This document shows, piece by piece, positions 1-34,558 of a stretch of DNA of 64,000 nt. A program made the position numbers and the translations under genes. Source of the stretch: Lujinxingiaceae bacterium (GTDB lineage: Bacteria > Myxococcota_A > Bradymonadia > Bradymonadales > Bradymonadaceae); NCBI GenBank assembly GCA_013697635.1, contig JACCWM010000186.1:1-64000 (forward strand), in the 5' to 3' direction. Position 1 is the stretch's first letter, and each line of letters opens with the position of its first letter. The notes under the pieces were generated by a model. That model saw nothing but the letters and a program-made list of their open reading frames with translations, was not told the DNA's origin and ran no database searches.

Positions 1-2769
1 GTGGTGGTGGTGGGGGTGGGTGTGGCCGGCGTAGTGGATGAGGTCGGCGTGGCGGATCGCGTCGTCGGTCCAGTGGTCGACGCGGGTGGGGGTGAGGCCG
101 TGGTGGGTGAGGAGCTCGTGGAGCCAGCGGGCTTCCTGGTCGGCCTGGGGGAGGGCGTCGCTGGTGTGGTCGTGAGGGTGCCAAATGGCGGCGGTCTTGG
201 GTGGGTGGGGGACGGCCTGGGGGTGCATGGCGAGCTGGGCTAAAGTCAGCGTGAAGTCGATGGCGAAGCGGTTGACGAGGGGGGTGAGGTCGGGGGTGAG
301 GCAGGCCTGGAAGGGGACGTGGACGAGGTCGGCGCCAGGGGCGAGGGTGAGGTGGCGAAGGGTCTTGCGGGTGAGGTAGCGCGCTTCGAGCGGGGCGAAG
401 AAGAGCTCGTAGAGGCGGACGAGGTCGCGGGTGAGCTGGCGAGCGTGGACGCGGGAGCCGGCGCCTCGGCTGCCGCAAACGCGTTCGAGCACGCGTTGGA
501 CGCGCTGTGCTTCGCTAGGGCTCCAGGGCTGTTCGAGGCAGTCGACGTGGCCGTCGTGGGCGACGAAGATGAGGAAGTGGTCGGCGTTGGGGTCGGGCAG
601 GAAGTACTCGATGGCGAGGCGGTCGGGGCCGAGGCGGTCGAGGACGTCTTGGGTGCGCACGAGCTGGGGCGTGGCAAAGGGGTGGGCGCGGACGAGCTCC
701 ATGTACTTTTCGAGGACGCGGTGGGAGGCGTTGGCGTCGCCCGGGCGCATGTGCATCGCGGGGTGGAACGCGCCGGGGCCGGCGGTGGCCGAGCCTGTGG
801 CGTTTTGCAGGGCGTCGTCGAGCTCGGGTGTGGTGCCGCGGCGCTCGTAGAGCAGACGAAGAAAGTCGCCGCTCTTGACCTCGAAGACGGTGGTTAGGGC
901 GGCGGCGACGTCGCCCTGGTGCAGGTGCAGGTAGGCCTGACGAGCGCCGATGTGGCGGCTGCTGGCGAGCAGGTCGAGGCGCTGGTCTTCGTCGTCGAGG
1001 AAGGTGGCCAGGGCCAGGACGAGCTGCAGGGCCTTTCGGGCGTGGCGGATCGCGCGGTGAGGGTCTTCTTCGACGATGGCGAGCGTGTCGAGGACCTCGG
1101 CTTCGCTGATGACACGGCCGGCGCGGGCGAAGTTTTTGGCCGCCCGCTCGTAGTGGCGGATCGCGCGGGGCCGATCGCCTCGGCGCAGATAGCACTCACC
1201 GCGCTGGTAATCGATCGCGGCGCTGTAGGCTGGATGGTACTCGACCTGTGGTTCGAGCTCATCGGCCAGGCGCAGCGTGGCCTCGTCGTCTTCGAGCATT
1301 GAGGTCGAGACGAGCAGGTTGACCGATGCGAGCACCCACATGTTGCGGTGGTGGGCGTTTTGGAAGTGCTGGCGAGCGAGCGCGAAGGAGGCAACCGATG
1401 CGGCGAACTCGTCGCATTGCATTTCGACGTAGCCGATCGAGAAGTGAACGGTGCCGACCTCGATCTCGCCGAGTGGTGACGTGGCGAGCAGGGCTTTTGC
1501 TTCTTCGATGGCGTCGTGGGCGAACTCCCAGTGACGGGCGTTCGCGGCCATGCTGGCCAAGGCGGCGATGGTGTGGACTCGCTGACGAGGGGATGCCTCA
1601 TCTTCGATTGAATCGAGCAGCCTGGCGAGGATCTCCAGGGCGCGTTGGTTTGCGCCGCGCAGGCTCCAGAGCACGGCCTCGGCGCGGCCGCGTATCATGA
1701 GCATGTCGGGATTCTCGAGCGCTTCGATCTCCTCGTGAGTTGGTAGGACGTATGCCGCGTCGGCCTGGTTGCCTTCGTTCATCAGCGCGATGGCGAGGGT
1801 GACGCGTGCCGTCGTGTGTAAATGAGGTTCGATGTCGGGATCTTCGAGTGCGTATTCGTAGTGAAGGCGCGCTCGCTCGTTCTCTCCGAGCTCGACGAGA
1901 ATATCGGCGAGTGCGACGTGAACCGCGCTTCGTGCTTCGGGATCGAGGTCGTCGCGTAAGATCTCTTCGTAGCATTCGGCGACGAAGGGCATGTCATGGT
2001 TGACCATGAGTATGGCGACTTCGTCGAGAACTTGGGCGTAACGCGGGCCGTCGATCCCGCATTGTCGGCGCGCGTGTATGAGTAGATCATGAGCGTGTAC
2101 GCCATGACCCTTGTCGCTAAGGACTCTGGCAAGCTGGCAGGCGCTGCTCCACAAGTCATTGCGCTCGTTGTCGGCTAACGCGGCTGCGTTCTCAAGCTCA
2201 GTGGCGAGCCTGAGCAGTAGGCGTTGGCCGCCCGCTTCCGACTCATTCAAACGCTTCGATTGCGTGGGGATCTGCGAGAGCTCGTAAAAGGCCCAAGTCG
2301 CACGAAAGAGGTCGTTGGTCGCCTCAAAGCTGGCGAGTGCTTCGCGAAAGAGGGGCTCGGCCTGCTCAAGTTGGTCGAGGTCGAGGTGAACTCGGGCTTC
2401 GAGGAAAACGACCTGAACACGCAAGTCGTCGATGCCGGCCTCGTCGCAAAGTACGTGCGCTTGCTGCAGGCACTTTAGCGCGTCGTGAGGCACCCTGGCG
2501 TGTTTTAGCAACTGGGCGCTACGCAATCTGGCGAGCACGGCCGTGCGGCCTGTGCATTCGGGGTGGGCGAGGGCCTGGCTAAGGGTGATGCAGGCGTCTT
2601 CATCCTCGTCGAGGCGAAAGAGCGCGTAGGCGCGAAGTACGAGCGCGTGGGCGGATTGCCGTTCGTCTGGCGCGAGCGTGTCGAGCAAGGCCAGCGACTG
2701 CTCAAAGGCAGGGCGGTCGTTTCGCCATTGTAGAGCATCGACCGTGGATAGGATGTCTTCGCTGCTCAT
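1..2769 (-). CDS. Helical-repeat (TPR-like) protein with C-terminal CHAT protease domain, partial
   Basis: The minus-strand frame from the ATG at 2769 is open to base 1 (923 codons, no stop), so the C-terminus lies outside the window. Most of the protein is Ala/Leu/Glu-rich helical repeats of TPR type, for example paired helices around codons 20-110 and 330-600. From about codon 720 it changes to a CHAT-like alpha/beta fold with a YFLPDP strand and a conserved HYAGH at codons 912-916. In CHAT proteases this His is one of the catalytic pair; the Cys would lie beyond the window. CHAT domains are caspase-family peptidases, often the effector of bacterial conflict systems. The gene starts 11 bases after the preceding gene and is third in a sigma-like operon. 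Codon use and third-position GC fit a real gene. Family call is confident; substrate unknown. Confidence 0.85.
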   Translation of the reverse strand, partial: MSSEDILSTVDALQWRNDRPAFEQSLALLDTLAPDERQSAHALVLRAYALFRLDEDEDACITLSQALAHPECTGRTAVLARLRSAQLLKHARVPHDALKCLQQAHVLCDEAGIDDLRVQVVFLEARVHLDLDQLEQAEPLFREALASFEATNDLFRATWAFYELSQIPTQSKRLNESEAGGQRLLLRLATELENAAALADNERNDLWSSACQLARVLSDKGHGVHAHDLLIHARRQCGIDGPRYAQVLDEVAILMVNHDMPFVAECYEEILRDDLDPEARSAVHVALADILVELGENERARLHYEYALEDPDIEPHLHTTARVTLAIALMNEGNQADAAYVLPTHEEIEALENPDMLMIRGRAEAVLWSLRGANQRALEILARLLDSIEDEASPRQRVHTIAALASMAANARHWEFAHDAIEEAKALLATSPLGEIEVGTVHFSIGYVEMQCDEFAASVASFALARQHFQNAHHRNMWVLASVNLLVSTSMLEDDEATLRLADELEPQVEYHPAYSAAIDYQRGECYLRRGDRPRAIRHYERAAKNFARAGRVISEAEVLDTLAIVEEDPHRAIRHARKALQLVLALATFLDDEDQRLDLLASSRHIGARQAYLHLHQGDVAAALTTVFEVKSGDFLRLLYERRGTTPELDDALQNATGSATAGPGAFHPAMHMRPGDANASHRVLEKYMELVRAHPFATPQLVRTQDVLDRLGPDRLAIEYFLPDPNADHFLIFVAHDGHVDCLEQPWSPSEAQRVQRVLERVCGSRGAGSRVHARQLTRDLVRLYELFFAPLEARYLTRKTLRHLTLAPGADLVHVPFQACLTPDLTPLVNRFAIDFTLTLAQLAMHPQAVPHPPKTAAIWHPHDHTSDALPQADQEARWLHELLTHHGLTPTRVDHWTDDAIRHADLIHYAGHTHPHHHH

Positions 2770-5009: not shown

Positions 5010-6017
5010 TCAACTATCGGCCAGCGCACGCTGGCGTACATCCTCGGGAAGCTCGGAGAGCTCGACGGTGCGTCGCGTGGTCTGGATGTCGGGGGGCTCG
5101 CCGTAGTCGTAGTTTCCGATGTCGCGTTTGGCGCGTTTGACGTGGTCGATCTGGGTGGCGAAGTCGGCGAGTGTGAGGTGCTGGCGGTCGCCGGTGCGGC
5201 GCACGGCGGCCGTGGCGGCGGCGATCAGGGCGTTTTGCATCTCGCCGCCTGAGAGGCCCTCGGCGAGTTCGGCGAGCTGGTCGGGGTCGACGTCGGGGGC
5301 GCAGGGCAGCTCGGGGATGAGGTAGAGCTGCCAGAGCCGCTTGCGGCTGGCGAGGTCGGGCAGGGGGAAGTGGATGTGGCCGAGGATGCGGCGCACGAAG
5401 GCGCCGTCGTAGTTTCTGGCGAGGTTGGTGGCGAAGACGACGACGCCGTCGAAGCCTTCGAGCTCTTTGAGCATGACGCTGCGGGCCTGGTTGACGCCGT
5501 AGTCGGCGGACTGGCGGATGTCGGTCAGGCGCTTGCTCAGGATCGTGTCGGCCTCGTCGAAGAAGAGCACGGCGTTGTCTTCGCGGGCGGCCTGGAAGGC
5601 CGCGACGATGTTCTTGGCGGTTTCGCCGACGAACTTCGACTCGAGCTCGGCGTAGTTGACGTCGAGGATCGGGCGATTGAGGTGGTTGGCGATGGCCTCG
5701 GCGCAGAAGGTCTTTCCGGTGCCGGGTGGGCCGTACAAATTGATCGCCATGCGCCGGCCGCCTGGGGCGATCTTTTGAAGGTTCCAGTCTTCGAAGAGCA
5801 CCTTCTGGTAGCGCAGCTTGTCGAGCAGGATCTCGAGTTGCTCGCGGGTCTGGGCGGGGACGATGAGGTGATCGAGGCTGAATCGGGCAGCGCGGGCGAC
5901 GAAGGTTTCGCGTGTGGGAAGTGGTTGTGGTGGAGGCTCGGCAGGGGCCGCCGCAACGGCGGGCGTCATGTCGGGGATGGCGGATGACGACTTGATCTGG
6001 GTCCAGGCGGTGCCCAT
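5010..6017 (-). CDS. Single-domain AAA ATPase with C-terminal DLP-type motif
   Basis: This is a 335-residue AAA ATPase of the FtsH/Cdc48 class. Visible motifs are Walker A GPPGTGKT at about residues 95-102, Walker B FFDEAD at about 151-156, sensor 1 in FATNLARN and an arginine-finger segment FVRRI. There is no protease domain and no membrane segment. The start ATG at 6017 has GAGGA six bases upstream; a longer reading frame to 6743 has no such site and runs across two other genes. The last 20 residues contain TRRTVELSELPEDVRQR, a version of the motif near the C-terminus of the four preceding small proteins. It lies eight bases after the last of them. Probable role: remodelling or extracting those membrane partners; partner specificity is inferred. 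Confidence 0.88.
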   Translation of the reverse strand: MGTAWTQIKSSSAIPDMTPAVAAAPAEPPPQPLPTRETFVARAARFSLDHLIVPAQTREQLEILLDKLRYQKVLFEDWNLQKIAPGGRRMAINLYGPPGTGKTFCAEAIANHLNRPILDVNYAELESKFVGETAKNIVAAFQAAREDNAVLFFDEADTILSKRLTDIRQSADYGVNQARSVMLKELEGFDGVVVFATNLARNYDGAFVRRILGHIHFPLPDLASRKRLWQLYLIPELPCAPDVDPDQLAELAEGLSGGEMQNALIAAATAAVRRTGDRQHLTLADFATQIDHVKRAKRDIGNYDYGEPPDIQTTRRTVELSELPEDVRQRALADS

Positions 6018-6025
6018 GGTTTTCC

Positions 6026-6379
6026 TCAGGCTGAAAGGGACATAGAGAGTTGTTCGGTGACGTCGATCACGACGCGATCTTTGCGGGCGAGCTGCTTTTG
6101 AACGTCGTCGGGCAAGTCGTCGTAAGCGACGGTCTCGTTGCGAACGATCTCGAGCTCGTCGCTGTAGTCGTGCACGCGGATGCCGAGTTGCTTTCGGACC
6201 CCGCCGCGCAGGCGCACCAGGATGCAGAAGGCCTGGGCAAAGGTGTTGAATTCGTGGTCGTTGAGCCAGTCGGCGACGGCCTGGGTGTCTTCGTCGCTCA
6301 TGAAGACGAAGCCGAAGGCCGAGCCCAGGAGCACGCCACCAAAGAGCCACCACAAGATGGCGGGGATTGCAGGTAACAT
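6026..6379 (-). CDS. Small membrane protein of DLPxxVQ cluster (117 aa)
   Basis: The 117-residue protein has an N-terminal hydrophobic helix (about residues 4-26, LWWLFGGVLLG) predicted to anchor it in the inner membrane, followed by a short soluble domain. Near the C-terminus it carries VAYDDLPDDVQKQLAR, matching the motif shared across this operon. GAGG lies seven bases before the ATG at 6379. It is the last small gene before the AAA ATPase, separated by eight bases. No known family is recognised; the shared motif and operon position argue that it works with the ATPase. Confidence 0.75.
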   Translation of the reverse strand: MLPAIPAILWWLFGGVLLGSAFGFVFMSDEDTQAVADWLNDHEFNTFAQAFCILVRLRGGVRKQLGIRVHDYSDELEIVRNETVAYDDLPDDVQKQLARKDRVVIDVTEQLSMSLSA

Positions 6380-6387
6380 CGGCGACC

Positions 6388-6843
6388 TCAGGCGGCGGCG
6401 GAGCCGGGTTCATGGAATTCGGGATGCCAGGGTACGTGCAGGCGCGTTTCACCGCGCAGGAACGCCTGCTGCACTGGCGAGGGAAGATCGTCGAGCGCCA
6501 GGCGTCGGCGCACGTTGAGCAGGGAGTCGCCGTCTTTCTCGATACGGATTTCGAGGAAGTAGCCGGCGTGCTGGCGTTCGAACTCCAGAAAGACGAAGTC
6601 GATGTGACGATCGTAGGCCGTGGTGAAGTCTTCGGGAGCGTTGCGTGAGGTGAGCAGGCTCGCGATCTCGGCGCGCGGGCGGCGAAGCCGGGCCTCGAGC
6701 CAGGCGGCGACCTCGCCCACGACGAAGGTGTCGAGCTGGCCACGCACGGCGCGCTCGGCGCCTCGGCCCATGCGCCAGATCAGCGCGACGCCGACGAGCG
6801 TGACGAGTCCGGCCGCGAGCCAGAATGTGGGAATGATTTCCAT
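6388..6843 (-). CDS. Small membrane protein of DLPxxVQ cluster (151 aa)
   Basis: I start this protein at the ATG at 6843 because CGGAGAA lies eight bases upstream and it puts the hydrophobic helix (about residues 5-26) at the N-terminus, as in the neighbouring proteins. A GTG at 6909 overlapping the previous stop (GTGA) is an alternative. After the helix come an amphipathic region and a mixed domain, then VRRRLALDDLPSPVQQAFLR, clearly the same motif as in the 161-residue protein encoded just upstream. A proline/histidine-rich tail ends the protein. No known family recognised. Confidence 0.75.
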   Translation of the reverse strand: MEIIPTFWLAAGLVTLVGVALIWRMGRGAERAVRGQLDTFVVGEVAAWLEARLRRPRAEIASLLTSRNAPEDFTTAYDRHIDFVFLEFERQHAGYFLEIRIEKDGDSLLNVRRRLALDDLPSPVQQAFLRGETRLHVPWHPEFHEPGSAAA

Positions 6844-6905
6844 GGGTCGATTCTCCGTTGGGCGTTTCGAGAGTGGGTATCGTCGGTTGTGCATGCTCGA
6901 AGTCC

Positions 6906-7391
6906 TCACACCGTCATCGCCAATTCCAGACTGGCCTGCTCGATCTGTTCGTCCTGCTCGGCCGTGATGTCGTATTCGCGCGCCGCCTCACCGCGTAAGA
7001 AGGAGGACTGAACGTCGGCGGGCAGATCGTCGAGCATCACGGTGCGGCGGGTCTCGACGATCTCGACCTTGTCTTCGGCGAGCTTCTCGCGCAGATAGGA
7101 TGTGACCGTGACGAGATAGTTTTGGGCGACGCGTTCGAAGTTCTCGACCATCTTGAGCAGCCGCGGGCGCAGCTTGCGCCAGGCCTGCACGGCGGCCTTG
7201 CGTACGGCCATGACGGCATTGTTGAGTACGACGAAGGCCTCGCGCACTAGCGGGGCGATCGTGGGCAGGTGTTGGTCGCACCAGGGGAAGAGCGACTCCT
7301 GAGCCCAGCCGATGATGTGTTCCCAGAAGACGACGACAGAGGCCAGCGCGAGGCCGAGGCCGGCAAAGATCGTGATGGTGATAGGGTCCAT
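6906..7391 (-). CDS. Small membrane protein of DLPxxVQ cluster (161 aa)
   Basis: The 161-residue protein starts with a hydrophobic helix (about residues 4-27), continues with a long amphipathic helical stretch (about 45-110, possible coiled coil), and then has TRRTVMLDDLPADVQSSFLR near residue 125. AAGGAG lies six bases upstream of the ATG. Its stop overlaps a possible GTG start of the next gene. The stalk-like helices suggest a membrane-anchored assembly subunit. The family is unknown to me; the motif links it to the AAA ATPase downstream. Confidence 0.78.
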   Translation of the reverse strand: MDPITITIFAGLGLALASVVVFWEHIIGWAQESLFPWCDQHLPTIAPLVREAFVVLNNAVMAVRKAAVQAWRKLRPRLLKMVENFERVAQNYLVTVTSYLREKLAEDKVEIVETRRTVMLDDLPADVQSSFLRGEAAREYDITAEQDEQIEQASLELAMTV

Positions 7392-7418
7392 GAGGTGCTC
7401 CTTGTGCTCGAGGCTTTT

Positions 7419-7991
7419 TTAGAGGATGGCAAACTTCATCTCGGTTTCTTTGTTGAAGAGGAACGCCTCGTTGACCGCCTGCGGCAGGTCCTCGAGCGTG
7501 ACCTGGCGCCTGGCCTCGAGCGCCTTGATCGGCGCGTCGCCCTGGCGCAAATAAGCCTGACAGACGCGCCAGTACTGTTTGCGATCTTCGAGCTGGTAGG
7601 AGCAGTGCAGCACGATATGCCAGGGCTTGAGCCGCGCGTTGGTCGCAACGCTTCGCTCCCATTGAGCGCGGGTCATCGGCTGGTCGTCCTCGATCCGCCA
7701 CATGATCCACTCGACCACGTGCTGCTCCTCGAGCGGCACCTCGGTGGCGATCAGCTTGGCGAGCTCGTGGTAGGTGTCGGTGCGAATTTGCCGCTCGAGC
7801 GGCGCGCCCATGTTAGCCGCAAAGCTCGTCAGAGGATCGAGCAGTCCCCGAAGGCGCTGGGCCCATTGCTCGGGGTTGCTCTCGACATCGGTGAGCAGGT
7901 CACGTTCGGGCTTGGAGAGGAGCTCAGAGAATTCGCGCAGCGCGCGTTGGATGCTCTCGGGGAGCACCCGGCGATTGTTGGTGGGTATCAT
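7419..7991 (-). CDS. Soluble first protein of DLPxxVQ cluster (190 aa)
   Basis: This is the first gene of the cluster in transcription order. It encodes 190 residues with no membrane segment, a strong GGAGG site before the ATG at 7991, and a mostly helical N-terminal half. The C-terminal part holds ARRQVTLEDLPQAVNEAFLF, a version of the shared motif. The next gene follows after 27 bases. No family recognised. Because the other small proteins have an N-terminal membrane helix and this one does not, it may be the cytosolic component that the ATPase or the membrane subunits recognise (inference). Confidence 0.75.
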   Translation of the reverse strand: MIPTNNRRVLPESIQRALREFSELLSKPERDLLTDVESNPEQWAQRLRGLLDPLTSFAANMGAPLERQIRTDTYHELAKLIATEVPLEEQHVVEWIMWRIEDDQPMTRAQWERSVATNARLKPWHIVLHCSYQLEDRKQYWRVCQAYLRQGDAPIKALEARRQVTLEDLPQAVNEAFLFNKETEMKFAIL

Positions 7992-18203: not shown

Positions 18204-18207
<4 letters not shown>

Positions 18208-20444
18208 CGGTCACCGAGAGCCTGATCGTGCGCGTGCCGAGCTTTGCGGCGCTCGCGCTGCCCGAGGACGCCGTGGTCGTGGCCGACGCCGGCCTGCCTC
18301 GGGCCTGGCTCGAGGCGCTTGGCGATCCCATCCTGGTCGAGGCCGGCGAGTCGCTCAAGCGGCTGGCATCAATCGAACAGCTCGCCGAACAGGTGCTCGC
18401 GCGCCGATCGACGCGGCCATTGACGCTTGTGGCCGTGGGCGGCGGCTCGGTGGGCGACGCCGTGGGATTTCTGGCGAGCGTCTTGTGGCGCGGCGTCGAG
18501 CTTTGGCACGTGCCCACCACGCTGTTGGCGATGGTCGACTCTGCCCACGGTGGCAAGACGGCCGTCAACCTCGGGCACGCCAAAAACCAGCTTGGCACCT
18601 TTTATTCGGCCAGCCGCGTCGTGCTCGTCGACCAGGCGCTGGCCACGCTGCCCCTCGAGCAGCGCCGCGACGGCCTGGCCGAGCTCGTCAAGGGCCTGTG
18701 GCTCGGTGACGCCGACGCGCTCGCCATGCTCGATGCCGAGGGCGGCGTCGATGCGCTGGCCGCCGCGCCCTTTGAGGTGGCCGGCGAGCGACTCATGGCC
18801 TTGTTGCAGCGCGCGATCGACGTCAAGCTCGCGATCGTCGAGCGCGACATGTTCGAGACCAAGGGCATTCGCACCTTCCTCAATTTCGGCCACACCGTGG
18901 GCCACACCGTCGAGCTCTTGACCGGCGTCTCGCACGGCCAGGCGGTGTGCTGGGGCCTGCTGTCGGCGAGCTTCTTGTCGGGCGCGCACATGGGTCTCGA
19001 CGTCCAGCAGACCGCGCGGCTTCGACGCCACGTTTATGCGCTTTTGACGCCGGCACAGGCGATCGCCTCACTCACCGACCGCGAGCGCTTTGCGGCAGGC
19101 ATCGCGCGCGACAAAAAGCGCATCAACGCCGATCTGCGCTCGATATGCCTGCGCGCGCCCGGCGAGCCTTTTGTGACGCGCGAAGTCTCGCCTGAGGACT
19201 GGTTCGAGGCGTTTCGTGAGGCCGTCGAGTGGTTTGAGTCAACGCCGGCGCTCGTCGAGCGGCGCGCAAATCACGTTGCCAGCCTCTCGATCGCTGCGAG
19301 CAAGTCCGAGATGAATCGCGCGCTGGTCATCGAGCATCTGCGCCCGGGCCAAACGGCGATCGAAGGCCACAGCACAGCCGACGACGTCGTCTGGCTCAAG
19401 AGCTGTCTCAAGGCGCTGCGAGAAAACGACGGCCCGGCGCAGATTTATTGCGGCGAGGGCGGCACGACCTTTCGCTTTCTGGTGGCAGTGAGCGCTGCGC
19501 GAGCTGGCGAGACCCTGCTTTTGGCCTCCGCACGCCTGCTTGAGCGCCCGCATACCCCACTCTATGATGCGCTGCGCGCGGCTGGCGCGAGCATTGAGCC
19601 CGTCGTGGTCGACGGCGTGCCGGGTGTGCGTGTTGTGGGTTGGGCGAGCTGGCCCGAGCGCGTGGAGGTCTCGGCCGCAGGTTCGTCGCAGTACCCCACA
19701 GCGCTGGCGCTGCTTGCCGCGAGCGGTGCGAGCTTTGTGCTCGCGCTTGGCGGCACCGGTGAGATGGCGAGCGAGCCGTATTTTGAGATGACGCTCGATT
19801 TGTTGCGGCGCGCAGGCGTCAACGTTCAAAGAGAGGACGGCGGCTGGCGATTTGGCCCGACGCCGCAGTTGAGCACAGCGTGTACGTTGTCGGCCGAGGC
19901 CGATGCGAGCAGCGCCGCGGTCTGGGCGATGGGCCGCCTGGTCGGCGTCGAGGCCGCGATCGCGCGCGCGCCCGTGCTGGGCCGCCAGCCCGACGCCCGC
20001 GCTGCAAGCCTTGCCGCAAGCCTTGGCCAGGCGGATCGCGATGGCCTCGAGAGGCTCGTCATCGAGCTGAGCGAGGCGCCCGATCTGGCGCCAGTGCTCG
20101 TCGCCGTGGCAAGCCAGCTCGATTGTGCGCTCGAGATCGTCGGCGCCGCCCACCTGCGCCACAAGGAGTCCGACCGCATCGGCGATCTGGTGACAGCCTT
20201 TGAGCGCGTCGGCGTGCGCATCGAGGCGCGCGAGGACGGTATTTTTGTTCCGCCCGGCCGCCAGCGCGCCCAAGACGGCGCGCTCTTTGAGACTTTTGGC
20301 GACCATCGCCTCGCCATGGCCGGCCTGCTCATGAGCGCGAGCGGCGCCTCGCTTCTAATCGAGCGGCCGATGGTCGTCGCCAAGTCCTATCCCGACTTCT
20401 GGCACCACGTGCGAAGCCTGGGGTGGAGCGTCGTGCCGCGATGA
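18204..20444 (+). CDS. aroBA: Fused 3-dehydroquinate synthase - EPSP synthase (AroB-AroA)
   Basis: The 746-residue fusion carries two complete shikimate enzymes. Residues 1 to about 335 are dehydroquinate synthase: GGGSVGDAVGF, PTTLLAMVDS, GGKTAVNLG, and the zinc ligands in AELVKG, NFGHTVGH (about 229) and SHGQAV. Residues about 350-746 are EPSP synthase: SKSEMNRA (about 365), GEGGTTFRFL, ERPHTPLYDAL, SSQYPTAL, EADASSA, LRHKESDRI, FGDHRLAM and VAKSYPDF. All key residues I can check are present in both halves, so both should be active. AroB-AroA is the domain order at the N-terminus of eukaryotic AROM. It overlaps both neighbours by four bases. Confidence 0.95.
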
Positions 20445-22297
20445 CCACGGGCAGTCTCAACATCTACATCATGGGCCACCGCGCCAGCGGCAAGACGAGC
20501 ACTGCCCGGCTTGCTGGCAAGGTGCTTGGCCTCGAGGTGATCGATCTCGACGCCGAGATCGAGGCCAGAGCGGGCCAAAGCTGTGCCGAGATCATCGCCG
20601 CCAGCGAGCCGCGCTTTCGCGCGCTCGAGCGCAAGGTGTTGGCCACGATCGTCGCGAAACCGTGCCAGCCAGCCCGGATCATCGTGCTCGGTGGTGGGTT
20701 TCATCCGCTTCCCACGGACGGTGCGTGCATCTGGTTGTACCGCGACGGCTGGGAGCCTGTGGCCCGCGAGGCGCGCCACAGGCTTCGCCCCGACGTGGAT
20801 TTCGAGGCCGAGCTCGCCTGGATGATCGACGAGCGCGAGCCGCGCTTTGAGCAGGCCGCCGACCTTCGCCTCGATGTCTCACGCGGGCGAAGGATCGAGC
20901 GTGTAGCCGAGGATCTGGCGACCTGGATTGGCTGGTTGCTCGAGTTGCAAAGCTCGCCGATTGCCCGGCGCACATGGGTCGTTGCCGCAGGCCTCGACCA
21001 GCTTGCGGGCGCCGTGCGCGCGGCCAGGCTCTTCGGGCTTGCCGGCGTCGAGGTACGAAGCGATCTGGTTGACGCTGCTCAAGCCCAGGCGCCTGGCGTG
21101 GCCGTGATGGCGAGCTTGCGAACCCCGCAGCCCGACTGGCTCGCTGCGATGGGCGCGTCGGCGGCCTTTGACATCGATATCGCGCATCTCGACGCCGTTA
21201 ACGCGGCCAACACGCTGGCATCGATGCCGCCGCGCCCGCTCATTTTGTCGTCGCATCCGGCAAACGCCGACATCCAGACCTGCGAGCGCCTGCTTGCGGG
21301 CGCCGAGAGCTTTGCGCAAGCCTATCCGGCCTGGGCCGAGCACATCACGCTCAAGTGGGCGCCGGTCGTCTCGAACTACAGCGAGCTGCTCGCGGCCCTC
21401 GACGCGACCGACAGGCTGCGCGAGCGCGGCCGGCCCGTGACCTTTTTACCGCAAGGCGCGCGCTTTGCCTGGTGTCGCCCGCCGCTTGCGGTGCAAAACG
21501 CCACAAACTACGTGCCCGTGGGTCTTGCCCCGCACAGGCGTCGTTTCACGAGCAATGCCGTGCAGACCCCGCTCGATTTCCAGGCCTGGCTCGTGCACAT
21601 GAGCGGCCCCGTACCAACGCACTTTCAGGGCCTGATCGGAGACCCGGTCGACGCCAGCCAGGGCGATGTGTGGCACCGGCGCGCCGCCCGGCGCGAGGGC
21701 GTGGCGGCCTCGTACGTCAAGATTGCCTTTGGACGCGAGGAGTCGGCCGGCGAGCTTGCACGCCTTCTGGTGGCCTGCGAGCGCCTGTCCATCAGCGGAC
21801 TCTCGGTGACCGCGCCGCTCAAACAGACCATTGTCGAGGGACGCGCGGTCAACACGCTGCGCCTGGTGCTGGGCAGCTGGCAGGCCACCGACACCGACGA
21901 GGCCGGCATGCGCGCCACGCTTGCGGCGGCCGCAAGCCACGGCTTCGGGCCGGGCAGTGTGGCGATCATCGGCCAGGGCGGCGTCTCCGAGGCAATTTTG
22001 CGCGCGATCGACGGCTCCGATTGGAAGCTCGTCCACCACGCCAGCGGACGACTGGGCTGGAGTGAGGCGGCGCCCGAGGAGGTCACGATGGTGGTCAACG
22101 CCGTCGGCGACTCCGACTCGGCCTACGTCGGCCCACCGCGCTGCCAGGTTTGGGTCGATCTGCACTACGCCGGCGTGCGCGCGCCCGCTCCCGATATTTC
22201 ATTGCATTTCAATGGCGACACTTTTTTCGACGCCCAGGCCCACGCCCAGCGCTTGTACTGGCAAGGGGCGAACCCACAGGACGACGACCATGCATAG
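20441..22297 (+). CDS. aroKDE: Fused shikimate kinase - 3-dehydroquinate dehydratase - shikimate dehydrogenase (AroK-AroD-AroE)
   Basis: The 618-residue trifunctional protein starts at ATG 20441, overlapping the aroBA stop as ATGA. Residues 1 to about 170 are shikimate kinase (GHRASGKTS, DLDAEIE, FRALE, LGGGF). About 180-385 is type I dehydroquinate dehydratase with VEVRSD (about 203), the catalytic His in SSHP (about 270) and the Schiff-base Lys in LKWAP (about 303). About 395-618 is shikimate dehydrogenase with GLIGDPVDAS, LSVTAPLK (catalytic Lys) and VNTL...TDTDEAG. The kinase-dehydratase-dehydrogenase order is that of the C-terminal three domains of fungal AROM. The dehydrogenase NADP loop (IGQGGVSEA) is less canonical, so its activity deserves a check. 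Confidence 0.93.
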   Translation: MTTGSLNIYIMGHRASGKTSTARLAGKVLGLEVIDLDAEIEARAGQSCAEIIAASEPRFRALERKVLATIVAKPCQPARIIVLGGGFHPLPTDGACIWLYRDGWEPVAREARHRLRPDVDFEAELAWMIDEREPRFEQAADLRLDVSRGRRIERVAEDLATWIGWLLELQSSPIARRTWVVAAGLDQLAGAVRAARLFGLAGVEVRSDLVDAAQAQAPGVAVMASLRTPQPDWLAAMGASAAFDIDIAHLDAVNAANTLASMPPRPLILSSHPANADIQTCERLLAGAESFAQAYPAWAEHITLKWAPVVSNYSELLAALDATDRLRERGRPVTFLPQGARFAWCRPPLAVQNATNYVPVGLAPHRRRFTSNAVQTPLDFQAWLVHMSGPVPTHFQGLIGDPVDASQGDVWHRRAARREGVAASYVKIAFGREESAGELARLLVACERLSISGLSVTAPLKQTIVEGRAVNTLRLVLGSWQATDTDEAGMRATLAAAASHGFGPGSVAIIGQGGVSEAILRAIDGSDWKLVHHASGRLGWSEAAPEEVTMVVNAVGDSDSAYVGPPRCQVWVDLHYAGVRAPAPDISLHFNGDTFFDAQAHAQRLYWQGANPQDDDHA

Positions 22298-25414: not shown

Positions 25415-25852
25415 ATGAATCAAGCACCAGAACCCGACCAGACCGAAATCCGATGGACCGAGCATCTTCCCAAGATCGTCGGCGTGGTCTTAGTCGCCTA
25501 TTTGTTGCTTCTGCTCGCTGTGCCGGCCGTGCGCGGTATATTTTTGCGCAATATCTTACCCAACGGGGTCTATTCGGCCGATTGGGTTGCCTGGCACGCC
25601 GGCGAGAGCGCCTCCGAGAACAACTGTCACTATCAGGTGCGCGGCTCGCTTGGTAACAGCATCGCAATTCTGACTTGTCGCCCCGTGGCCGGTGGCGTCG
25701 TCGTGGCCGGCGCCAAGCCCGCTAATTCGGACGAAGTCGAGGATGACTTTTACACGTGTGGCACCGGGATAATGGCGCGGGAGAAGATGTTGGCAAGGGA
25801 ACAAGCCAATAAACGCTATGGAGGCCTTGGTCGATGGTTGATCCGCGACTGA
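25415..25852 (+). CDS. Single-pass membrane protein at head of ternary-system operon
   Basis: The 145-residue protein has one hydrophobic helix at about residues 22-42 (VGVVLVAYLLLLLAVPAV) and then a domain likely outside the cytoplasm with two or three cysteines (NNCHYQV, ILTCRPV, FYTCGTG). The ATG at 25415 has GGAG seven bases upstream. It overlaps the radical-SAM gene by 19 bases and so probably belongs to the same operon. I do not recognise the family. Confidence 0.7.
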   Translation: MNQAPEPDQTEIRWTEHLPKIVGVVLVAYLLLLLAVPAVRGIFLRNILPNGVYSADWVAWHAGESASENNCHYQVRGSLGNSIAILTCRPVAGGVVVAGAKPANSDEVEDDFYTCGTGIMAREKMLAREQANKRYGGLGRWLIRD

Positions 25853-26481
25853 CCAGCCTTCATGCACGCGCCAGCATCGTCAACACGGCCGCACGCATTC
25901 CATGCACACAAGCCGAAGGACCGGGGAGCCGCTTTGCCCTCTGGGTTCAGGGCTGTCCGTTGCGTTGTCCGGGATGCTGCAATCCCCACATGCTCGAGGA
26001 CCGGGCCGCCGAGTCGGTCACGGTGGCCGCTCTGTTGGCTGAGATCGCCGAGCAAGCCAATCGAATCGAGGGCGTGACCTTTCTGGGTGGTGAACCATTC
26101 TTTCAGGCCGGGGCGCTGGCCGAGCTTGCGCGAGGCGTGCAGGCGATGGGTCAAAGCGTGATGGTCTTCTCCGGGCATACGCTGACTCGACTTCGGGGCG
26201 CAGACAACGCCGATTACGACGCCTTGCTCGTCCACACCGACCTGCTCGTCGATGGCCCCTACCTCGAGCGCTTGCGCGTCACCGACCGTCGCTGGATCGG
26301 CTCGTCCAACCAGCGCACGCATTTTTTGAGCGAGCGCTACCGCCACCTCGAACAAGGCCCTACGAGCTGGGACACCGGCGCAAATACGGTTGAGCTTCGC
26401 CTCGTCGGCGGCACGCTCACGGTCAATGGCTTTCCCGAGCCGGGTGTGTTGCGCCTGTCCGGTCGCCGGGATGTGCCATGA
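25834..26481 (+). CDS. Radical-SAM activating-enzyme-like protein (NrdG/4Fe-4S single-cluster type)
   Basis: The 215-residue protein has the radical-SAM cluster motif CX3CX2C at Cys41, Cys45 and Cys48 (QGCPLRCPGC), followed by the GGEPF motif near residue 85 that contacts SAM. Short size and layout resemble NrdG and other glycyl-radical-activating enzymes or the Fer4_12 family. No glycyl-radical enzyme gene is nearby. Instead it is coupled by an ATGA overlap to the next gene of the FtsH-MoxR-vWA operon. It may modify a component of that system, which would be unusual; this is inference. Confidence 0.85.
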   Translation: MVDPRLTSLHARASIVNTAARIPCTQAEGPGSRFALWVQGCPLRCPGCCNPHMLEDRAAESVTVAALLAEIAEQANRIEGVTFLGGEPFFQAGALAELARGVQAMGQSVMVFSGHTLTRLRGADNADYDALLVHTDLLVDGPYLERLRVTDRRWIGSSNQRTHFLSERYRHLEQGPTSWDTGANTVELRLVGGTLTVNGFPEPGVLRLSGRRDVP

Positions 26482-27557
26482 GCCAGGTCGAGTCCGAGCG
26501 CAACAAACACGCGATCATGGCCAATCGCGAGTTGGTGCCATTTGCGATGGCCATGCTCGCCGGCGACGTGGTGCGCGGCACGGGCACCGGTCGCCATTTG
26601 CCCGTTGGCGAGCCCGACGCGCTCACGCTAGAAGCCGTCGAGGCGCTCGTGCGCATGATCCCGCGCGGTGTGCTCGGCCAGCTTGTGCGCCTTGGCGGCT
26701 GGCGCGCCTGTGCGACGATCGTCGACGGCCGCGAGCAATGCCTGAGGCTTGGCAACGTGCGAAACCGTCGCAACGTCGAGCTTCGCTACAGCACGCGCAG
26801 CATCGAGGCCGTCTTGATCGCGTTTAACGCGAGCGCCCTGCAATCCCTGAACGAGCGCGACTTCCAAAGGGCGCTGGCGCCCCAGCCGATGCCCAGGCGC
26901 CTGGCTGGTGACGTGCTCGTTCACCACTTTTTCGGGGACAAAGTCCTTGCCCATCACGGCTTGAACCCGCTTGTGCGCCTGTACTTCGAAGACAACGCAC
27001 TCACGCGCCTTTGCCGTTTGAGCGGCTCGCACGATGCGCTAGAGGCGGCTGTCGGCTGGTTGCTCAGCGGATCGCTCGCGCCGCTATTGCCCTGGCTGGG
27101 CAGCTATTTGAGTGAGCGCTGGCTTGGGGAGCTCGACCAGATGTGGCAAACCCATCGGCGTATGCGCAACGTGGTCACGAACTGGGCAAAAGTGTTTTGC
27201 GTCTGGCGCCAGGTGGCCGTCGAGCACGCCCAGATCCACCAGCTCACGGCGCTCGTCGAGCTTTACCAAAACCTGTTCGCCGATCCCCATGCCGAGCAAC
27301 GCTTGCGCGCGCAGTTTCAAGTTTTGACCGATGGCCACCTGTTCCAGACCCGCCACGAGCTGCGCGTGCTCTGGGCCGACGCGCTCGACGAGCTGCTCGC
27401 CATCGAGCGCGTCTACCTCGGGCTGCGCGGGCGCCACCCGGTCGAGCGCACAGCCAGCGAGCAGTTGTTCATGAAAGAGTGGGAGGCGCGCCAGATGGGG
27501 CCTGTCGCCCGGCGCGTCGACGTGTTTTCGCGCGAGCTTCGAGGAGTCGTAGGCTGA
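26478..27557 (+). CDS. Unassigned component of the FtsH-vWA-MoxR operon (359 aa)
   Basis: The 359-residue soluble protein is mostly helical. An N-terminal segment (residues about 15-60) contains GTGTGRHLPVGEPDALT, then basic and aromatic helices follow. There is no membrane segment or recognised catalytic motif. It overlaps the radical-SAM gene by four bases and is followed 19 bases later by the next component. Position matches one of the X components reported for FtsH-type ternary conflict systems, but I cannot say which. Confidence 0.7.
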   Translation: MSQVESERNKHAIMANRELVPFAMAMLAGDVVRGTGTGRHLPVGEPDALTLEAVEALVRMIPRGVLGQLVRLGGWRACATIVDGREQCLRLGNVRNRRNVELRYSTRSIEAVLIAFNASALQSLNERDFQRALAPQPMPRRLAGDVLVHHFFGDKVLAHHGLNPLVRLYFEDNALTRLCRLSGSHDALEAAVGWLLSGSLAPLLPWLGSYLSERWLGELDQMWQTHRRMRNVVTNWAKVFCVWRQVAVEHAQIHQLTALVELYQNLFADPHAEQRLRAQFQVLTDGHLFQTRHELRVLWADALDELLAIERVYLGLRGRHPVERTASEQLFMKEWEARQMGPVARRVDVFSRELRGVVG

Positions 27558-27576
27558 TGAACACCAGGGAGATTCG

Positions 27577-28125
27577 ATGAGTTACGGATACCAGATATCG
27601 CTTCGCATCCAGGAACGGATTGTGACCTCCGACGAGATCCGCCACAAGCTCGAGCTGCGCGACATCCTCGCGCGCGAGCAGATGGTGCGCCTGCTCGTCG
27701 AGGCGCTCGTCGATGTCGGCTTTGCCCGGGCCGATCAGAATACGCTGGTTCGAGACGATGGCCAGGGGCTCTTGAGCAGCGTCGATCTCGCTACGCTCGA
27801 GGTCACGACCTCGACCGACCATGAGCGTGTAATCGACGTCGAGGTCTCCCGAAGCGTGCGCACCGAGAACAACAATGCCGCCGAGGCAGGCCGCGTGCTT
27901 CGCGCCGAGGTCATGGCCGACGAGCGGCTCGCGGCCAATCGCGACCTGATTCAACGCCTCGAGGCCGGGGAATGCGCGCGCGTCGAGGAGCTCAACCGTG
28001 TGCTCGAGCGCGTCTACAGCAAGGCGCTCAAGACGCGCGCCGCTCAGCTCGGCGACGTCGTCGAGATGCACGAGGGCACCAACGCCGATGGCCAGTACGA
28101 GCTGGTCATCAAGATCGAGCTGTGA
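27577..28125 (+). CDS. Unassigned component of the FtsH-vWA-MoxR operon (182 aa)
   Basis: The 182-residue protein has N-terminal strands (YQISLRIQERIV), a helix, a middle segment with strand-rich sequence (TLEVTTSTDHERVIDVEVSR) and a C-terminal strand (YELVIKIEL) after a long helix. No known catalytic motif. A GGGAGA site precedes the ATG, and the FtsH-like gene follows 25 bases after its stop. It is likely a small regulatory or adaptor subunit of the system. Confidence 0.7.
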   Translation: MSYGYQISLRIQERIVTSDEIRHKLELRDILAREQMVRLLVEALVDVGFARADQNTLVRDDGQGLLSSVDLATLEVTTSTDHERVIDVEVSRSVRTENNNAAEAGRVLRAEVMADERLAANRDLIQRLEAGECARVEELNRVLERVYSKALKTRAAQLGDVVEMHEGTNADGQYELVIKIEL

Positions 28126-28150
28126 TTGACCACGCCAGCCAGGAACTCTT

Positions 28151-30340
28151 ATGAAGCTCGAAGTTTCCATCAGCTCGCTGCCGCTAGCGCTGACCTACGA
28201 CCAGGCCGTCGAGGCGGCCTACCGCGACGATCTCGACTGGATCGAGGAGAAGCTGCGCCAGCGCCTGAGCGTGCTCGTCGAGTGCGACAAGCAGCTCACC
28301 AACTACATCTACCTCGCGCTTCGCCGCCGCTTTCGCGCCGCACCGCTGGACCCGTCACGCAGCACTCCGTCGCTGCAACTGCTGGCCGGCCAGCCGCGCC
28401 CACCGGCGCCCGGAGAGGACGGACTGGCGCTTGCCCAACCGCTGCCACCGCTGCCCCAGCGCCTGCTCGACGAGCTGCGAGAGGTCGTCTACTCGGCCGA
28501 GAACAGCGCGATCGTCGTGTTGAGCCACCTCGACATCTTGACCACGACCACGCGCAGCGGGCTCAACGTCGAGGCGCGCGAGGCCGCCGCGATCATGTAC
28601 GAGAACCCGGACATCGTTTACCTGGGATTTCGCGATCCGGGCTTTGAGATTCCGCCGGTGATCGAGAAGGTCTTTGCGGTCAAGCACGCCGTGGTTGGTC
28701 TGGGGCGCGAGCGCTTGGCGTCGCTGGTCTTGCAGCAGGAGGCCAGAAAGCTCGGCGTGGACACCTTCAATCCCTTCGCCTTGTTCAAGTATGTCTCCGG
28801 GCTCAACGCCGTTCGCTGCCGTCAGATCTTGAGCCAACTTGCCGGGCGTATCGACTTCGACCCGGCCATGCCCGCCAGCCGCGATGCGATCTACCGCGAT
28901 ATCCGGCGCATGACCGTCGTGGGCGATCTCGAGATTCCTCAGGTCGACCTCGACCGTCACATCGGCGGCTATGACGATGTCAAGGCGCGCATCAAGACCG
29001 AGATCCTCGAGCTGCTCGCGATCAAAGAGGGCTGCACGGCCGGCGAGCAGGTTCGCGAGATCGAGGAGATCATACCCAAGGGCATGATTTTCTACGGCCC
29101 GCCCGGCACCGGCAAGACCTTCTTCGCCAAGGCGATCGCCACCGCGCTCAACGCCACGGTCAGCGTCGTCTCCGGGCCCGAGCTCAAGAGCAAGTGGGTG
29201 GGCGAGAGCGAGGAGAATTTGCGCCGCGTCTTCGCCCAGGCGCGCCGCTCGGCGCCGGCGATCATCATCTTCGACGAGCTCGACTCGTTCGCCAGCGCGC
29301 GGGGCACCTATACCGGCAGCGGCGTCGAGCACTCGATGGTCAACCAGCTGCTCACCGAGATGGACGGCTTTCGAAAAGAGGAGCTCGTCTTTGTGGTGGG
29401 CACGACGAACTTTGTCTCCTCGCTCGACCCGGCGCTGCTGCGCCCGGGGCGCTTTGAGCTGATGATCGAGATCCCCTATCCCGACGCCCCGGCGCGCCGC
29501 GCGATCGTGGACATCTACCGCAAGCAGTTCGCTTTGGAGATGTCCGAGGACATCGTCGACTACGTCGTCGAGCAGACCGCCGGCTACGTCGATGCCCAGG
29601 GCGCGCGCTACAGCGGCGACCACATCTACGCGATTTTGCGCGCGCTCAAGCGCGAGGCGCTTCGACGGGGCACCGAGCGCATGGCAGTCGGGGTTGAAGA
29701 CGTCGACCGCGCGATCGGCGATCGCCGCCAGGCGCGCCGCCCGCGCATCCAAAAAGAGGAAGAGCACACAATCGCCATCCATGAGGCCGGCCACGCCGTG
29801 GCGGCCTGGGTGCTGCCCAACTGCCCGGCCGTTCAAAAGATCACGATTGCCACTGGCGAGGACGACCACCTGGGCTACGTGCTCCAGGAGATCGCGCGCA
29901 ATCAATTCGTGCACACCCGAAGCGAGCTGCTCGACGACATCTGCGTTGCGCTCGCTGGCCGCGAGGCCGAGGCCATGGTGCTGGGCGACATCTCCTCGGG
30001 CGCCTGGGGAGATTTGCAGCGCGCGACGGCCCTGGCCCGCATGATGGTCGAGCAGTGGGGCATGGACGAGTCGCTGCCGCTTCGAAGCTATGGCGGCGGC
30101 GACGACTCCGAGGGCCGCGCGCTGGCACCGGCGACCGCCGAGCGCCTCGATATGGCGATCGGCCAACTGCTCGAGACCCAGCAAGCCCGCGCCCGACACA
30201 CGCTCGAGCAACACCGTGGCGCGCTCGACGAGCTCGTCAAGCGCCTGTTAGCCGAGAAAACACTGACCGGCGAGCACCTGCGCGAGGTGTTCGGTGAGGT
30301 TGAGTTCAAGCGCGTGAGCGCGACGGCTGAGCTAGTTTGA
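28151..30340 (+). CDS. FtsH-like AAA zinc metalloprotease of a ternary system
   Basis: The 729-residue protein has about 270 residues of its own type at the N-terminus, an AAA domain (Walker A GPPGTGKT at about 316-323, Walker B IIIFDELD, LLRPGRFE arginine-finger helix) and an M41 peptidase domain with the HEAGH zinc site at about 543-547 and the third ligand region GDISSGAWGDLQRAT. Unlike housekeeping FtsH it shows no N-terminal transmembrane pair, so it should be cytosolic or recruited by partners. Gene order with MoxR and vWA genes downstream identifies it as the protease of an FtsH ternary system rather than the cell's general FtsH. Confidence 0.93.
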   Translation: MKLEVSISSLPLALTYDQAVEAAYRDDLDWIEEKLRQRLSVLVECDKQLTNYIYLALRRRFRAAPLDPSRSTPSLQLLAGQPRPPAPGEDGLALAQPLPPLPQRLLDELREVVYSAENSAIVVLSHLDILTTTTRSGLNVEAREAAAIMYENPDIVYLGFRDPGFEIPPVIEKVFAVKHAVVGLGRERLASLVLQQEARKLGVDTFNPFALFKYVSGLNAVRCRQILSQLAGRIDFDPAMPASRDAIYRDIRRMTVVGDLEIPQVDLDRHIGGYDDVKARIKTEILELLAIKEGCTAGEQVREIEEIIPKGMIFYGPPGTGKTFFAKAIATALNATVSVVSGPELKSKWVGESEENLRRVFAQARRSAPAIIIFDELDSFASARGTYTGSGVEHSMVNQLLTEMDGFRKEELVFVVGTTNFVSSLDPALLRPGRFELMIEIPYPDAPARRAIVDIYRKQFALEMSEDIVDYVVEQTAGYVDAQGARYSGDHIYAILRALKREALRRGTERMAVGVEDVDRAIGDRRQARRPRIQKEEEHTIAIHEAGHAVAAWVLPNCPAVQKITIATGEDDHLGYVLQEIARNQFVHTRSELLDDICVALAGREAEAMVLGDISSGAWGDLQRATALARMMVEQWGMDESLPLRSYGGGDDSEGRALAPATAERLDMAIGQLLETQQARARHTLEQHRGALDELVKRLLAEKTLTGEHLREVFGEVEFKRVSATAELV

Positions 30341-30373
30341 CATGACCATCCGACCCAACGCTGAGGTACATTC

Positions 30374-30649
30374 ATGGCTCAACTGACCATCCGTCTGGTT
30401 TCCAACGCCAAGAGCGGCAAGCGCGACATCATCATCGACCACGAATCCGAGCGCGACGCGTTGCCCTTCGAGCACGAGCAGGAGCACCGCGATCTCATCG
30501 AGAAGCTGCTCGGCCAGGGGATCTTGCAGCCTGGCGAAGTCGGCGAGGTGATCATCCAGCGCATTCGCCCCGGCCAGGCCGACGCACCTGTTCCTGGCGA
30601 GCAGCCTGGCGAGCGCACGCGCACGGCTCATGGCGAGGGCGATCCGTGA
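30374..30649 (+). CDS. Small (91 aa) possible ubiquitin-like component
   Basis: The 91-residue protein begins with strand sequence AQLTIRLVSNAKSGKRDIII, continues with a helix and ends with a Gly/Pro-rich disordered tail. A small beta-grasp-like start and a flexible tail recall the YukD/ubiquitin-like proteins reported in FtsH ternary systems, but the match is by pattern only. It has a GAGGT site, and its stop overlaps the next gene's GTG start by four bases. Confidence 0.65.
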   Translation: MAQLTIRLVSNAKSGKRDIIIDHESERDALPFEHEQEHRDLIEKLLGQGILQPGEVGEVIIQRIRPGQADAPVPGEQPGERTRTAHGEGDP

Positions 30650-33549: not shown

Positions 33550-33550
33550 T

Positions 33551-34555
33551 ATGACGACAACAACGCTGGATGGCTCGCCCGTCTCGGCTGATGAGGTTGA
33601 GCGGCTTCGAAAGCGCCTCAACGCGATGCGCACCGATCTGCACCGCTACTGGGTGGAGAAAAACGAGATCATCGATCTGATGACGGTCTGCGCGCTGGCC
33701 CAGGAGCCGCTGCTCTTGGTGGGCAAGCCCGGCACGGCCAAGAGCGATCTGGTGGTCAAGTTCGCCCAGGCCATGGGCCTCGATACGATGAGCCCGGACT
33801 ATTTCGAGTACATGCTCACCCAGTTCACAGAGCCCAGCGAGATCGTCGGCCCAATCGACATCAACGAGCTCAAGGAGGGCCGCTACATTCGGCGCACCGG
33901 CGGCAAGCTGCCCGAGGCGCGTCTGGTGTTTTTGGACGAGATATTCAAGGGCAACTCGGCGATCCTCAATACGCTGTTGACGATCATCAACGAGCGCAAG
34001 TTCTACCAGGACGGCAAGCCCGTGCCGGTGGCGCTGTGCATGCTCTTTGGCGCCACCAACGAGGTGCCCGAGCACACCGAGCTTGGCGCGCTCAAAGACC
34101 GCTTCGCCCTCAAGATCGAGAGCCGCAGCGTTCGAAACCATGCCTTTGACGCCCTGCTCGAAAAGGGTTTGCAAAACGATGTCTACAAGTCCCAGGGCCA
34201 GCGTCCCTGGGCCTCGCGCACGAGCATCGAGGACTTCGTGCGCCTCAAGAGCTATCTCGATCAGGTCTTTGTCAGCGAGCTCGAGGACGGTCGCCACCAC
34301 CGCGAGCGCTACTTTCCAGACCAGGTCTACCGGCTGTTCGTGCGCGTGCTCAAATCGCTCGAGCGCGAGTTTCGCTTCGAGGTCAGCGACCGCAAGGTGA
34401 TCAAGCTCTACAAGCTCATTCGCACCCGCGCCTTCTTGCTGCACGGCGGCGTGGCACAAAAGAGCGATTTGACGCTGCTGCGCTACATCGCCGACCGCCT
34501 CGATGACATGGAGCCGATGCGCGAGGCCGTCGACCGCATGTTGCAGGTCGAATAA
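33551..34555 (+). CDS. MoxR-family AAA+ ATPase
   Basis: The 334-residue AAA+ ATPase is of the MoxR/RavA type. Walker A is GKPGTAKS at residues 58-65, Walker B LVFLDEIFKGN near residue 125, followed by AILNTLLTIINERKF and a sensor-1 region with FGATNEVPE. The C-terminal helical lid is present. MoxR ATPases work with vWA partners to remodel or activate proteins; here the vWA gene starts three bases after its stop and the FtsH-like protease is in the same operon. Confidence 0.93.
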   Translation: MTTTTLDGSPVSADEVERLRKRLNAMRTDLHRYWVEKNEIIDLMTVCALAQEPLLLVGKPGTAKSDLVVKFAQAMGLDTMSPDYFEYMLTQFTEPSEIVGPIDINELKEGRYIRRTGGKLPEARLVFLDEIFKGNSAILNTLLTIINERKFYQDGKPVPVALCMLFGATNEVPEHTELGALKDRFALKIESRSVRNHAFDALLEKGLQNDVYKSQGQRPWASRTSIEDFVRLKSYLDQVFVSELEDGRHHRERYFPDQVYRLFVRVLKSLEREFRFEVSDRKVIKLYKLIRTRAFLLHGGVAQKSDLTLLRYIADRLDDMEPMREAVDRMLQVE

Positions 34556-34558
34556 GCC

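Follow-up and report, generated by a model that had tools for sequence, protein, structure and literature searches.

In the endosomal sorting complex required for transport (ESCRT)/Vps4 system of eukaryotes and archaea, an AAA ATPase handles several membrane-associated partners via a shared C-terminal element (PMC11237479 and general background). In Craspase, Csx29 cleaves Csx30, and has been proposed to thereby relieve CASP-sigma inhibition (PMC10028731). The present study concerns an operon in a 64,000-nucleotide stretch of DNA from a Lujinxingiaceae bacterium (contig JACCWM010000186.1, positions 1 to 64,000; hereafter the window). The operon consists of eight genes in two modules: A-B-C-D-AAA, which encodes four small proteins and an AAA ATPase with a common C-terminal tail, and P6-P7-TPR-CHAT. 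A preliminary description of the window had presented the first module as a five-gene cluster; the five genes were recovered, whereas the operon continues beyond them with genes for a sigma-70-like protein, P7, and a TPR-CHAT peptidase.

The first module resembles ESCRT-III/Vps4, and PspA/Snf7 encoded with a classical AAA ATPase, in that it combines a classical AAA ATPase with small membrane-associated proteins that have a common C-terminal element. However, the element in the window is predicted to be a folded beta-beta-beta-alpha domain, and most of the partners have true transmembrane helices. A to D did not match the Snf7/PspA families of Pfam at E<=1, and an MIT domain was not found on the AAA ATPase among the best 25 of its 31 Pfam matches. 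The second module appears to resemble the type III-E CRISPR Craspase (Csx29 TPR-CHAT, Csx30, and CASP-sigma; PMC10028731) because its TPR-CHAT protease is accompanied by a weakly sigma-like factor and by a protein of no known family. However, the A-D/AAA module is without a counterpart in Craspase, and P7, which matches no family, may correspond to Csx30 by analogy. A Cas protein or CRISPR RNA-guided effector was not found among the operon genes, which were the scope of this search; CRISPR arrays and the rest of the genome were not searched.

The NTP-dependent conflict systems of Kaur et al. 2020 (MoxR-vWA ternary, FtsH ternary, and EACC1; PMC7159879) similarly combine an NTPase with a caspase-fold peptidase and have a patchy distribution, and the EACC1 system has a membrane-anchored small partner. 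In contrast, the window operon has a classical AAA ATPase without MoxR-vWA, and a C-terminal domain common to multiple partners is not described in the available parts of that article. The EACC1 transmembrane domain had no Pfam match in A to D, and neither a MoxR AAA nor a vWA protein was present in the window operon. A separate system of the kind outlined in those parts is located at 25834-36097 on the plus strand of the window and comprises radical SAM, FtsH-like AAA with M41 peptidase, MoxR (bpMoxR, E 3e-60), and ivWA (vWA of FtsH ternary systems, E 2.6e-25) genes.

The window AAA ATPase is also a distant relative of IetA in the IetAS anti-phage system (PADLOC, E about 1e-28 to 3e-36). It falls outside IetA itself, with 94.6 bits against the NCBI cut-off of 510, and no neighboring gene matched the subtilisin-like serine protease IetS in Pfam or PADLOC. 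The ATPases of extracellular contractile injection systems (eCIS) and Photorhabdus virulence cassettes (PVC; Afp15-type) are among the next-closest AAA sequences (35-40% identity); however, they are longer, are encoded in contractile-injection loci, and lie on a separate side of the AAA tree. As the preliminary description had supposed, searches of Pfam, NCBIfam, PADLOC, PHROGs, the PDB, and the open literature revealed no system of this build (subscription papers and preprints were outside that search).

We tentatively prefer, with slightly less than even confidence, the reading that the tail domain would dock a complex anchored in the membrane to the AAA ring, that this ring would remodel the complex, and that the protease and the sigma-like protein would form an attached response arm.

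The A-B-C-D-AAA module and its shared tail

The open reading frames of A, B, C, D, and the AAA ATPase lie where originally reported. They all run along the minus strand, are separated by short gaps, and carry the common tail. Gene A (7419..7991) encodes a soluble protein of 190 residues, the N-terminus of which is mostly helical. Genes B (6906..7391, 161 residues), C (6388..6843, 151 residues), and D (6026..6379, 117 residues) encode proteins with a single N-terminal transmembrane helix. Hydropathy agreed with this division into one soluble and three membrane proteins. The frame of gene C is open to a GTG at 6909; however, translation more likely starts from the ATG at 6843, since homologues likewise begin immediately ahead of the transmembrane helix. 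The helices of B and D have short, nearly neutral N-ends and are followed by basic residues, as is that of C in most loci. Therefore, the C-termini are predicted from this charge pattern to be cytoplasmic. The small proteins had been described as unrelated-looking, which does not apply to B and D: they resemble full-length paralogues, since one protein of record L070 has matches to both B (7e-8) and D (6e-6), and D is a probable paralogue of B. Family and PDB sequence searches did not reveal a toxin-like domain in A to D.

The tails are RRQVTLEDLPQAVNEAFLF in A, RRTVMLDDLPADVQSSFLR in B (6963-7070), RRRLALDDLPSPVQQAFLR in C (6421-6525), NETVAYDDLPDDVQKQLAR in D (6056-6154), and RRTVELSELPEDVRQRALA in the AAA ATPase (5019-5084). 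The L, P, and V of the motif were placed in all five window proteins by a MAFFT alignment. A leave-one-family-out test was then based on the C-terminal 80 residues of homologues of A to D: one family was omitted from each hidden Markov model, and full-length proteins were scored against 1750 shuffled decoys. Every C protein and most B proteins scored above all decoys, as did A of the window, L038, L054, and L055 and D of the window, L054, and L055. The window AAA tail also exceeded every decoy, at 18-23 bits. Distant A proteins, the Streptomyces B, D of L038, and the AAA tails of most other loci did not reach this level.

When the 6.2 Mb genome was searched with a tail profile built without the AAA tail, exactly five strong matches emerged, each to a gene of this cluster (E 4.6e-11 to 4.3e-6). 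The four small-protein tails, which were in the training set, matched at E 5e-9 to 5e-11, and the AAA tail, which was not, at E 4.3e-6; the next match had an E of 0.07. In this genome, the tail profile strongly matches these five genes only, and the tail does not appear to be part of a common known domain. A PDB sequence search with the tail returned chance-level LPxxVR matches only. Membership of PepSY_like (PF11396) was considered and dropped: the best score was 18.6 bits against a gathering cut-off of 28.3, and was obtained on B homologues of other loci only. As queries, protein P0001 recovered itself only in relatives and P0008 had no relative in viral contigs.

The shared element had been described as a 25-residue motif; instead, DLPxxV forms the C-terminal part of a domain of 55-70 residues. 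In A, this domain occupies 7422..7628 (69 residues, minus strand; motif at 7425-7526). We predicted it in isolation because the AlphaFold model of full-length A had low confidence in the C-terminus. AlphaFold2 gave three strands and a helix with a mean predicted local distance difference test (pLDDT) score of 79, from a trimmed alignment of six sequences of the window, L002, and L003. Since two of the five models were poor (44-45), confidence in the predicted beta-beta-beta-alpha fold is moderate. The hydrophobic pattern (FAIL, HVPW, and IDVT) points to a further strand behind the helix, but this strand is barely formed in the AlphaFold2 model. Foldseek searches of the PDB and of the viral models of BFVD did not find a structural neighbor of the A domain at E<=1e-3.

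The AAA ATPase (5010..6017, minus strand, 335 residues) has a single classical AAA domain and a lid, with AAA and AAA_lid_3 exceeding the Pfam cut-offs. Its Walker A and B motifs, sensor 1, arginine-finger position (R), and aromatic pore loop are intact and are conserved in nearly all relatives; the AAA ATPase of Planktothrix (L045) departs from this pattern in its pore loop. The best PDB sequence matches were p97/Cdc48. In the tree, the window AAA groups with the AAA genes of other clusters, plasmids, and phages, apart from eCIS-type ATPases. The AAA genes of the clusters do not form one supported clade (three label changes). The Chloroflexi records L004-L007 were rejected as relatives because they encode eCIS ATPases without tail genes.

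The P6-P7-TPR-CHAT module and recurrence of the operon

The second module follows downstream of AAA, likewise on the minus strand (5041-1), with short gaps or overlaps. P6 (3854..5041, start uncertain) is a divergent sigma-70-like protein: it weakly matches sigma-70 and its homologue does so at E 2e-5, both below the curated cut-off. P7 (2781..3857, 358 residues) overlaps P6 by 4 bp and matched no known family. The TPR-CHAT peptidase gene (1..2769) is cut off by the contig start. It has a CHAT domain (19-423, E 5e-12) with the histidine motif HYAGH and is the sole CHAT match in the genome; its cysteine motif falls beyond the contig end. The CHAT proteins of L054 and L055 have both the histidine (HYAGH) and cysteine (SGCESG) motifs, and the Streptomyces CHAT protein has CHGF and SAACSSG at similar places.

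Genomes G311, G312, and G316 have the order P6-P7-CHAT-A-B-C-D-AAA, namely, the same eight genes as in the window operon, but with the second module placed ahead of the first. G311 and G312 hardly differ and were treated as one event. The joining of the modules in two orders argues for a functional link. A P7 homologue lies beside CHAT in these three genomes and beside a C14 caspase in G023. In the latter (L059:6106-10479), P6-P7 is followed by a C14 caspase-type protein in place of CHAT, and A-D/AAA genes are not nearby. The two modules thus occur both apart and together. In Streptomyces (L042), the order is A-B-AAA-CHAT.

Related clusters were found by sampling 379 genomes of one phylum and by scanning plasmids, phages, and genome contigs. 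They amount to at least 13 loci including the window, with an AAA gene in all 13 and CHAT in 5 of them, in the phylum of the window, Selenomonadaceae, and cyanobacteria, and on plasmids of Moraxella, Comamonas, and Streptomyces. These genes recur together. Searches with the AAA ATPase found relatives in Selenomonadaceae (L002), Prochloraceae (L003), G216, G209, G311, G312, and G316 and on plasmids of Moraxella osloensis, Comamonas resistens, and a Streptomyces. At every locus found in this manner, at least one B-type partner adjoins the AAA gene, and the order A, B, C, D, AAA is kept in G216, G209, and the G311/G312/G316 group.

The tail alone, which the preliminary description had suggested as a query for AAA neighborhoods, matched strongly (E<1e-5) in five of the 379 genomes (G000, G209, G216, G284, and G241), and all five have an adjacent AAA gene. 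G284 and G241, which the AAA search missed, have three small partners followed by a divergent AAA. Weak matches (E 1e-4 to 1e-3) in seven genomes, including G251 and G430, were taken as chance. By the AAA gene, the distribution is sporadic (3 of the 379 genomes), with copies on three plasmids, one of which is 10 kb (Comamonas). A sporadic and plasmid-borne distribution is common among defense or conflict systems.

Several other loci encode related AAA ATPases. In Moraxella phage Mcat5 (L040:8013-8843), the AAA is the last gene of the record, at the start of which no tail-bearing partner is visible. On a Planktothrix plasmid (L045:3929-9575), five small transmembrane-type proteins with similar endings (of the DxEL...VIYE type in most) adjoin a related AAA gene and a HerA-like ATPase, an outline similar to that of the window system. 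Their tails are different from the window tail and were not detected by the tail profile. On a phage contig from the human gut and on a plasmid of Paraburkholderia (L041:5791-8102 and L046:5761-8169), the AAA gene is followed by that of a long (414-421 residues) coiled-coil-like protein, which is another type of partner. On a Lactobacillus paragasseri plasmid (L043:5902-6789), the AAA gene ends a cluster with a lantibiotic dehydratase-like gene, and a tail-bearing partner was not seen. The G241 cluster has a dynamin-family GTPase gene upstream on the opposite strand (L071:5151-6950).

Proposed mechanism and rival explanations

In the preferred reading, the A-B-C-D-AAA module would be a membrane-anchored complex, in which the N-terminal helices anchor B, C, and D in the inner membrane and A is cytosolic. 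The beta-beta-beta-alpha domain would be a common docking and assembly element that links the partners with one another and offers them to the AAA hexamer. Through its aromatic pore loop, the hexamer may pull on, disassemble, or reset the complex. We speculate that a change in this module activates the TPR-CHAT protease, which may then cleave a partner, perhaps P7, such that the sigma-like factor is released or the cell is killed.

Several observations weigh against this reading. The LP motif is missing from the Streptomyces B and from the proteins at the A position in Moraxella, Comamonas, and Streptomyces. The AAA tail, reported from the window in the preliminary description, is clear there but weak or absent at most other loci; therefore, homotypic docking through the AAA tail is not general. 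A CHAT homologue was not detected near the tail-bearing partners in the retrieved stretches of G216, G209, G284, G241, L002, L003, L044, and L048, some of which are short (10.6 kb in L039), so that absence is not proven for each locus. Since CHAT was not seen in 8 of the 13 loci, the P6-P7-CHAT module appears to be optional. Furthermore, no known defense gene was found beside the window copy, except for the separate conflict-type system 20 kb away.

A role in housekeeping, as a membrane-maintenance machine for envelope stress or protein insertion rather than a conflict system, is credible but unlikely. This concerns the role of the set and is compatible with the docking and remodeling proposed above. 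Small inner-membrane proteins encoded with a p97-type AAA ATPase, and the lack of toxin-like domains in A to D, are consistent with it. However, such a role accords poorly with the very sporadic distribution, the plasmid copies, including the one on only 10 kb, and the links to CHAT and caspase-type peptidases.

The tail may be an extraction or degradation tag, which the AAA ring recognizes to pull A to D from the membrane or to unfold them, without the need for an assembly domain. The constant company of an AAA gene with strong tails, its aromatic pore loop, and the position of the tails at or near the C-terminus suit this explanation. However, the element is predicted to be folded (pLDDT 79) and not a loose degron, B proteins have a further acidic stretch after it, and the window ATPase bears the tail itself. 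We consider a tag unlikely.

The explanation that the tail holds A to D together as hetero-oligomers descended from duplicated genes is about as unlikely. The ATPase would then act elsewhere on the complex, and its own tail likeness would be local. The apparent paralogy of B and D points in this direction, as does the lack of conservation of the AAA tail outside the window. Against this, the AAA tail was found by a profile that did not contain it, and the AAA ATPase of L071 ends in VVTVDEVAPGDLRQA, a suggestive likeness judged by eye only.

It is very improbable that the tail is where the TPR-CHAT protease recognizes or cuts its partners, comparable to the site that Csx30 contains for Csx29. 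In five loci, the CHAT gene shares the operon or directly adjoins it, and the genome has no other. However, tails persist in eight loci where no CHAT was seen nearby, and we therefore judge the tail unlikely to be chiefly a CHAT cleavage site. The chance that LPxxV is a common helix cap with a coincidental five-fold occurrence is negligible: short LPxxV stretches do weakly match unrelated PDB chains and, below its cut-off, PepSY_like, whereas coincidence is contradicted by the leave-one-family-out tests, by the specificity across the genome, and by the recurrence of the tail in other phyla.

Beyond the docking and remodeling of a membrane-anchored complex, it is possible, though doubtful, that the operon encodes an undescribed bacterial machine in which an AAA ring manages membrane-anchored proteins via a shared C-terminal docking domain and thereby controls a caspase-like protease and a sigma-like factor. 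Such a machine would be a sensor of membrane integrity or infection that is wired to a proteolytic and transcriptional response.

Other genes in the window and biological meaning

Elsewhere in the window, 18204-22297 (plus strand) encodes a dehydroquinate synthase-5-enolpyruvylshikimate-3-phosphate synthase fusion followed by a fusion of shikimate kinase and shikimate dehydrogenase-type domains. The unmatched middle part of the latter may be a dehydroquinate dehydratase. These fusions resemble the eukaryotic AROM protein, but are split over two genes. An Mrr-type restriction endonuclease domain protein is encoded at 38456-39376 on the minus strand.

The system is a candidate new stress or anti-phage machine. 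Compact versions are present on the 10 kb Comamonas plasmid and at the Selenomonadaceae locus. Its association with both a CHAT protease and a sigma-like factor is suggestive of a membrane sensor that triggers death or a transcriptional response. If the preferred reading is true, this operon would represent a bacterial, independently built solution to an ESCRT/Vps4-like task, found in distant phyla and on plasmids.

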